64,000 nt of DNA, from NCBI GenBank assembly GCA_022562795.1, contig JADFOP010000006.1:11939-75938 (forward strand). The letters are read 5' to 3'. This DNA is from Nitrospinota bacterium (GTDB lineage Bacteria; JADFOP01). Position numbers and translations under genes: made by a program. Of the stretch, positions 1,014 to 28,657 are shown piece after piece. Every line of letters begins with the position of its first letter. Position 1 is the first letter of the stretch. The notes beneath the pieces are model-generated. The model did no database searches, was not told the origin of the DNA, and saw only the letters and a program-made list of their open reading frames with translations.

Positions 1014-1014
<1 letters not shown>

Positions 1015-1643
1015 CACCGTTTCCTTTCAGAGACCTCGAGGGTAGATCTGCCCATTATTATGCCATATTGAGCTGGGGCCTCCACGAGTTTTTTCAGCGC
1101 ATCGATCATCGATTGGTTGCTCCAGCTGCGGGCCCCCTCGGCCCGGCCGATCACGCGCCCTTGTCCGTCAATGAGGATCGAGGTAGGAACGACCCGTACG
1201 TTGTAACCCTCCGAGACCTCCCCCCATAGATCTAGGAGCACGGGGACCGACGGGGAGTACTCTTGGACGAAAGCCTCAATGGAAGGCTTTTGCGCGACAT
1301 CGATAGCAACGGCGAGAACCGTAAAGGGCTCGGCATGCAATGCTCTCTGGAGCTTTCCCAGCTCCGCCACCTCAAAAGGCGCAGGGGGACTCCAGGTGGC
1401 CCAGAAATGGAGCAGGAGCAGGCGGCCCTTATAATCACCGAGGTCCGAAGTTTCTCCCTCTATGGTGGAGAGGGCGAAGGGGGAAGCCTCTGTAGGCGGC
1501 ATCACCGTCTCGAATCCCACCTCTTCGAGCAGTTTCCCTAGCGCTGACCCTTGCTCCTTGGCGTAGGCGGGAATCAAGGCGCAGAGGACAAGGACGAGAG
1601 CAAGGCAGGTCTTCAGGCGATGTCGGCCCTTTTGAGCTCCCAT
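1014..1643 (-). CDS. TlpA/ResA-like thioredoxin-fold protein lacking both active-site cysteines
   Basis: This 209-residue exported protein has a hydrophobic signal segment at about residues 8-28 and an AhpC-TSA/TlpA thioredoxin fold. The family normally carries a WCxxC redox site. Here the equivalent stretch reads ATWSPPAPFE, so Ser85 and Ala88 replace the two cysteines and thiol-disulfide chemistry should be impossible. The cis-proline loop (VVPTSILID) and the rest of the fold look intact, so this is probably a binding or scaffold role rather than a decayed gene (inference). The ATG has a good Shine-Dalgarno (GAAGGAG, 6 nt away), overlaps the end of lgt by 31 nt, and the stop overlaps the HtrA start. 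Confidence 0.85.
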
Positions 1644-3447: not shown

Positions 3448-4230
3448 TTACTTGTCTTCAGATGAAATTAGGCTCTCAATTTCTGCTCTAAAACGAGAAT
3501 AGGGATAAGCTCCCCGGATCACCTTATGGACCTTGATCGTCGGCTTGTTCGGCTCGGTCAGGCCGATGAAGAAGGTGGGGGTCCCTTTGACTCCGGCTTT
3601 CCCTCCGTCCGCGATATCCTTGCGGATCTCCGCCGTGTATTTTCCGTTAGCGAGACAGGGCTGAAATTTGCTGATATCCAACCCAAGGGCCTCGGCATGG
3701 CCCGATAAATCCTCCGGTCCCAGGGCCCTTTGGTTGGCAAAGAGCCGGGCGTGCATCTCCCAATATTTGCCTTGCTCGGCGGAGCAGTTGGCGGCCTCGG
3801 CCGCTTTGAAGGCATTGGGGTGAAGTTGCTTAATCGGAAAATCCCGGAAAACGTACTTGACCTTGCCCGTCTCGATGTACTCCTTCTCGATCTTGGGCAA
3901 CGTCTCACGGACGTGCCGGGCGCAAAACGGTCATTGGTAGTCTGAGAAATCGATGATGGTCACCTCCGCGTTTTTTTCGCCCAGGAAGGGATCATCATCG
4001 ACGCTGACGACGACGTTTTCCGGCTCTGGGGGTGGGATCGCCCCGACTCGTTGCAGGGCGGCTTTAATCTCCTTTAGCTCCTTCTCCGCCGTCTCCTGGC
4101 CTTTCTTAAGAGCCTCGACCTCTTTTTTAAGGGCCTCGATCTCACCACGGGGCTGTTCACATCCGGATAGAGGAATAAGGAGGACCAGAAGACTCAGCCC
4201 AAGCACGACGGTGAGCAATCTATTCATCAT
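3448..4230 (-). CDS. DsbA-like thiol oxidoreductase lipoprotein, probable selenoprotein (UGA at 3931-3933 read as Sec)
   Basis: The frame runs from the ATG at 4230 to 3448 with one internal UGA (codon 100, 3931-3933). The UGA falls exactly where DsbA_4/thioredoxin_4 proteins have the first cysteine of the CPxC motif: the sequence reads FSDYQ-[UGA]-PFCARH. The frame then continues without interruption through a complete DsbA domain, including the cis-Pro loop GTPTFFIG. The N-terminus is a lipoprotein signal (lipobox LSGC), followed by a charged coiled-coil (about residues 30-65). Cys103 would be the resolving partner. A SECIS-like hairpin lies just downstream of the UGA. The likely role is thiol-disulfide exchange or peroxide reduction at the cell surface (inference). 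The alternatives are two fragments or a single-base error (TGC to TGA). Selenocysteine synthesis genes are not in the window. Confidence 0.82.
3896..3917 (-). promoter_or_regulatory. Putative bacterial SECIS element downstream of the UGA codon
   Basis: Read on the minus strand, GGCACGUC (3917-3910) pairs with GACGU plus GCC (3904-3896), leaving one bulged U at 3899 and an apical loop CGUGA (3909-3905). The stem has eight pairs. The loop sits 22-26 nt after the UGA and has a G at its second position. Known bacterial SECIS elements lie inside the coding sequence just after the UGA, with a short GU-containing loop about 16-37 nt away, so both distance and loop fit. The folding was done by eye. 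Confidence 0.65.
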
Positions 4231-28434: not shown

Positions 28435-28497
28435 TGGCAGACAACACAACGCACACCGGTCAGCAGCGTCTCCCTCTGGACCGGCTCCGGTCACCTG

Positions 28498-28622
28498 CCA
28501 CCTTCTCCCATCCCGACTCTCACGGTCGGCTCCGGAATTCCACCGGATCAACCCCGCTGGGAGTTAGCGGGGGTCGCGGGCTCTTGCCGCCGGTAGGGAA
28601 TTTCGCCCTGCCCCGAAGGTGG
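28498..28622 (-). promoter_or_regulatory. FMN riboswitch (RFN element) aptamer
   Basis: The minus strand carries the conserved RFN core: GGGGCAGGGCGAAAUUCCC, ACCGGCGG, AGCCCGCGA, GGUUGAUCCGGUG, GAAUUCCGGAGCCGAC, and GGGAUGGGAGAAGG, in the right order. Helix P1 is CCACCUUC (28622-28615) paired with GAAGGUGG (28505-28498). Binding of FMN should favour the terminator downstream and shut off the ribD-ribE-ribBA-ribH operon. Confidence 0.95.
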
Positions 28623-28657
28623 TGTCTTATCCCTATGTTTACTACTTCTCTAGAATC

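Follow-up and report, generated by a model that had tools for sequence, protein, structure and literature searches.

A DsbA-type gene with one in-frame UGA

In the stretch of DNA analysed here (64,000 nucleotides, hereafter the window), the minus strand carries at 3448-4230 a coding sequence of 260 residues for a DsbA/Thioredoxin_4-type oxidoreductase, interrupted by a single in-frame TGA at 3931-3933. The preliminary description had claimed such a UGA inside an otherwise complete DsbA-type gene, and we confirm it on the minus strand at codon 100. The translation around this codon is FSDYQ-U-PFCARH, where U is the TGA, read as selenocysteine (Sec), and is the first residue of a U-P-F-C motif whose partner residue is Cys103. 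Read on the plus strand, the frame of the same interval is broken by several stops. Translation table 11 yields two same-frame ORFs, 4266-3931 and 3900-3448; genes like this are probably split in two or called pseudogenes where annotation reads UGA as a stop. The ortholog in a same-genus genome (G001) has the same layout as the window gene. All features of the gene given below lie on the minus strand.

The catalytic domain spans residues 78-224 (3559-3999). It matches the Pfam families Thioredoxin_4 (PF13462, 116.8 bits) and DSBA (PF01323, 62.8 bits), both over cut-off, and DsbA structures by fold. Both Pfam matches run across the TGA, in line with the earlier observation that conserved domain sequence lies on its two sides. 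An AlphaFold2 model in which Cys was substituted for Sec (mean pLDDT 90) has the DsbA fold with an N-terminal helix. A CxxC-type motif and a cis-Pro loop (Thr217-Pro218, 3577-3582), which faces the active site and is invariant in 28 members, complete the hallmarks of the DsbA/Thioredoxin_4 superfamily. Two further cysteines stand out among the 28 aligned members: Cys149 (3784-3786), which is invariant, and Cys192 (3655-3657), which is nearly so. They are probably the two halves of a structural disulfide. Both align with cysteines of Wolbachia alpha-DsbA1, whose listed structures include a C97A/C146A mutant, and this suggests that Cys149 and Cys192 form a second disulfide.

Ahead of the catalytic domain, a signal peptide (4159-4230) ends in the lipobox LSGC (residues 21-24, with Cys24 last). 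Read by eye from the translation, it has the lipoprotein form L-[ASTVI]-[GAS]-C past a hydrophobic helix. A long helix follows at residues 28-62 (4045-4149), which the AlphaFold2 model predicts with block pLDDT of about 87-95 over most of its length and which is a probable coiled-coil stalk. The surface anchoring proposed in the preliminary description would apply to the window copy, where the lipobox is present, and not to the other members whose N-terminus was read, which have ordinary signal peptides.

On one side the gene is flanked by an anti-sigma-like gene, lgt and a ResA-like gene, and on the other by recO, era and aspS. These neighbours are not conserved in other genomes. No conserved operon partner was found in the relatives' neighbourhoods that were examined, and thus the gene stands alone. 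The ResA/TlpA-like protein (1014-1643, minus strand) is itself without a CxxC motif, the place of which reads WATWSPPAP; to judge by its sequence, the protein has probably lost its catalytic activity or serves another purpose. Elsewhere in the window, an FMN riboswitch (28496-28624, minus strand, 114 bits) precedes an ORF of 388 aa on its own strand.

TGA is a stop codon elsewhere in the window

A full-length protein would likewise result if TGA had been reassigned in this genome to an ordinary amino acid, as in codes 4 or 25. However, 20 of the 47 window genes terminate in TGA, and TGA is thus an ordinary stop elsewhere and no reassigned sense codon. A scan of the 64-kb window for a second TGA-interrupted gene comparable to 4230-3448 gave no convincing case, and relatives carry Cys at exactly codon 100. 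On these three grounds we reject reassignment, which we regard as next to impossible.

The UGA recurs in relatives and the sequence beyond it is under selection

The same-genus ortholog is 65% identical to the window gene and contains exactly one TGA, at the same codon. More widely, TGA occupies codon 100 in 20 distinct copies, a total that combines a scan of genome contigs with a profile search in 396 genomes from the phylum that includes Acidobacteria CTSoil_012, while 124 matches have TGC or TGT there. Nearly all homologues other than the TGA copies encode Cys at this position. The TGA copies come from genomes whose labels include Nitrospinae, Acidobacteria and Syntrophaceae; record titles from the contig scan include Acidobacteria AH-259-O06, Acidobacteria CTSoil_012 (two copies) and Syntrophaceae UBA2188. 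The CTSoil_012 genome as a whole holds three TGA paralogues (L023 4678-5430, L023 6343-7029 and L170). Aligning the homologues, a check put forward in the preliminary description, therefore gives either TGA or Cys at codon 100, and the presence of TGA at this codon in the same-genus genome and in 20 distinct copies excludes a chance origin.

A comparison of the window gene with its same-genus ortholog gives a dN/dS of ~0.20 before the UGA and ~0.17 over the 125 codons after it. The low value past the UGA indicates that the downstream part is translated and under purifying selection.

A conserved hairpin follows the UGA

Directly past the UGA lies a stem-loop of the bacterial SECIS type (3896-3917), which we identify from its near-invariance in 18 TGA copies, from pair counts and from its fold. 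Its stem, ACGUC/GACGU, pairs 3910-3914 with 3900-3904 around the loop CGUGA (3905-3909), and its lower stem has a bulged U. The hallmark of bacterial SECIS elements is a small apical loop with a G (PMC1088965), and the window hairpin has such a loop. The form ACGUC-CGUGA-GACGU, 17-19 nt past the UGA, is near-invariant in 18 of the 20 TGA copies and absent from most Cys homologues. Conservation extends to silent sites: among the 18 copies, the third codon positions within the stem-loop are fixed in all (positions 24 and 30), in 17 (position 21) or in 16 (positions 27 and 33). The third positions that border it (15, 18, 36 and 39) vary freely in the TGA copies, as do the stem-loop columns in 114 Cys homologues.

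Pairing is also specific to the register of the stem, with the five pairs formed in 96.5% of cells versus 12.9-43.5% once the partner is shifted by 1-3 columns. The stem also shows two compensatory changes, one from C-G to U-A and one from U-A to C-G. The covariation score was reached by 2 of 500 shuffles, a count that does not amount to a probability since the sequences are related. When folded alone, the window hairpin is not significantly stable (z -0.75); the single-sequence fold is thus uninformative, and the case rests on comparison. The two remaining, remoter TGA copies (L172, 613-1182, and L173, 1439-2101, both on the minus strand) have an unrelated perfect hairpin, GAGGGUC-GGUCC-GACCCUC. 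The preliminary description had named a SECIS search as a further check, and a conserved hairpin is indeed present downstream of the UGA.

These comparisons bear directly on the possibility that the gene is a pseudogene created by a nonsense mutation, or that the codon is really TGC or TGT and was misread in sequencing. The one point in favour of either is that the assembly is a draft in 84 contigs in which selA and selB go undetected. Nevertheless, a single mutation or error does not account for the recurrence of TGA at this codon across separate genomes (20 distinct copies), for purifying selection that persists past the TGA (dN/dS 0.17) or for frozen silent sites in the hairpin. We reject a pseudogene or sequencing error on this evidence and consider either extremely improbable.

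Selenocysteine machinery in the genome and its relatives

The genome that contains the window is a draft of 2.15 Mb with an estimated completeness of 97.1%. It encodes a tRNA-Sec with anticodon TCA (contig C37, 77.6 bits) and a SelD (307 bits) with an in-frame TGA of its own, in LSHGGG-U-ACK, and with a strong hairpin after it (z -4.2). The selD gene (L138, C27:1-672) is incomplete, broken off at the end of contig C27. In the same draft, two SelA models failed to find selA, and a search for selB returned only matches to related GTPases far below cut-off. A search of the genome for the Sec machinery, as suggested in the preliminary description, has thus succeeded for tRNA-Sec and selD and not for selA and selB.

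Related genomes have the missing components. The same-genus genome carries adjacent selA and selB on contig C277, and a tRNA-Sec too, and in a genome of the same class selA, selB and a selD that contains a UGA are all present. In the genomes G001 and G002 selAB adjoin scpA; selAB were not found beside scpA in the genome of the window, where unrelated DNA lies at that place. True SelB occurs in most other genomes with a TGA copy. Of the remainder, G062 has a partial SelB match only, and G346 and G356, which hold the two remoter TGA copies, have no true SelB at E <= 1e-40.

If the lineage had recently lost selA and selB, the gene would be a relic whose UGA has become a stop, and cells would have ceased to produce the protein. 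Failure to find the two genes in a 97%-complete assembly, and their being missing from the place that they hold in the sister genome, would fit such a loss. However, tRNA-Sec, the SelD UGA with its strong hairpin and the DsbA UGA with its hairpin are all intact, and the truncation of selD at the end of contig C27 demonstrates that sequence belonging to this trait is missing from the assembly. We therefore consider a relic very unlikely. Equally slight is the chance that selA and selB are truly absent and that Sec in DsbA and SelD is decoded by another route, with a different Sec synthase or elongation factor. An assembly gap is, as we infer, the likeliest explanation for the missing selA and selB, given that the sister genome has both and that a contig end demonstrably truncates selD.

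We conclude that UGA-100 almost certainly serves as a Sec codon, or did so until very recently. The selenocysteine reading of the preliminary description is strongly supported by TGA in relatives, the hairpin, selection, tRNA-Sec and SelD, and the residual doubt mainly concerns the presence of selA and selB in this strain today.

Evolution of the Sec and Cys forms

On a tree of 65 homologues, 20 of them Sec copies, the Sec and Cys labels require 7 changes versus 17 in shuffles, the tree being a quick build with many weak branches. One set of 26 members holds eighteen of the Sec copies together with 8 Cys copies that nest among them; the other two Sec copies, the remoter ones, are placed elsewhere. 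A Sec copy (L171) and a Cys copy (L175) are close sisters with support 100, and hairpin-like remnants persist in L175 and in L146. The sister pair and the remnants together indicate that conversion between Sec and Cys, in whichever direction, took place more than once. Such conversions have been documented in other families (PMC1794560). The clade of 18 Sec copies presents one near-frozen recoding hairpin in genomes that bear the labels of different phyla, and its nested Cys versions, such as L175 beside L171, make the value of selenium over sulfur directly testable in one enzyme.

A proposed membrane-anchored Sec oxidoreductase

From these sequence features we propose the following course of events. 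A ribosome would arrive at UGA-100, and the hairpin 17-19 nt downstream would bind SelB carrying Sec-tRNA(Sec), so that Sec would be inserted at UGA-100 in place of termination, a step borne out by sequence comparison. The protein would then be exported, lipidated at Cys24 and held at the membrane by the helical stalk that the structural model predicts. By homology, its DsbA-fold domain would carry out thiol-disulfide exchange in which Sec100 attacks and Cys103 resolves, while a Cys149-Cys192 disulfide would stabilise the helical domain. The protein would thus act outside the cytoplasm as a membrane-anchored thiol-disulfide oxidoreductase, Sec100 being the attacking residue. For a lineage that has been little studied, it adds a well-supported Sec enzyme that handles disulfides in the extracytoplasmic space.

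The Thr-cisPro loop and the N-terminal helix ahead of the catalytic domain allow either an ScsC/BcfH-like oligomeric isomerase or an alpha-DsbA1-like oxidase. A protein that is chiefly an oligomeric disulfide isomerase or reductase, and not a DsbA-type oxidase, would agree with both of these features and with the occurrence of ScsC and BcfH among the fold matches; moreover, a low-potential selenol would favour reduction or isomerisation. However, the best matches in both fold and sequence are alpha-DsbA1, BdbD and Corynebacterium DsbA, which we take to be oxidase-type enzymes, and no redox partner was identified in the gene neighbourhood. We regard an isomerase or reductase as a serious possibility, somewhat short of an even chance.

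Comparison with known systems

Among solved structures, the model comes closest to Wolbachia alpha-DsbA1, Corynebacterium DsbA and Bacillus BdbD; ScsC and BcfH rank lower. Alpha-DsbA1 (PDB 3f4r/3f4s/3f4t), the top fold match, shares the two extra cysteines that align with Cys149 and Cys192, but has Cys in place of Sec, and its match includes no long N-terminal helix. Proteus ScsC (4xvw, 5id4) and Salmonella BcfH (7jve) align over most of the model, including both the catalytic and the N-terminal helical parts, yet they are Cys enzymes of ~16-22% identity.

That thioredoxin-fold selenoproteins with UxxC are known, as the preliminary description stated, is borne out by DsbA-like and DsbG-like examples in the literature (PMC1088965, PMC2398784, PMC1794560). 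For the same reason the oxidoreductase, which had been called unusual, is not so in kind. DsbA-like and DsbG-like UxxC selenoproteins have been known since 2005 from the Sargasso Sea (PMC1088965). They have been described from the Global Ocean Sampling data as DsbA 1, 2, 3 and DsbG-like (PMC2398784) and from bacterial genomes (PMC1794560; PMC5029168, in whose table the DsbA-like row reads 41 and 45), and are also covered by recent reviews (PMC9312934, PMC13188914). The selenoproteins of these surveys share with the present one the UxxC position, the DsbA-type domain and a hairpin with G in its loop. In our incomplete coverage of the literature, we found no paper that joins selenoproteins with Nitrospinota or with metagenome-assembled genomes of Acidobacteriota.

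The closest named family is NF041057, the Rcas_1661 family thioredoxin-like (seleno)lipoprotein, which appears as 'DsbG-like protein' with UxxC in PMC13188914; within NCBIfam, all 28 aligned members match it best, whether they carry Sec or Cys. The family shares with the window protein the lipoprotein character, the thioredoxin-like fold and UxxC. However, the window protein scores 134.7 bits against a curated cut-off of 190 and is thus no member by this model, and most of its relatives here, unlike that family, are not lipoproteins. With 'DsbA 1/2' and 'DsbG-like' the present clade was compared by description, and it may or may not fall inside them. The window gene therefore adds a well-supported case to a type of selenoprotein already known, and is no new kind of system. 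It belongs to what is apparently a new clade of that type, seemingly without a name.
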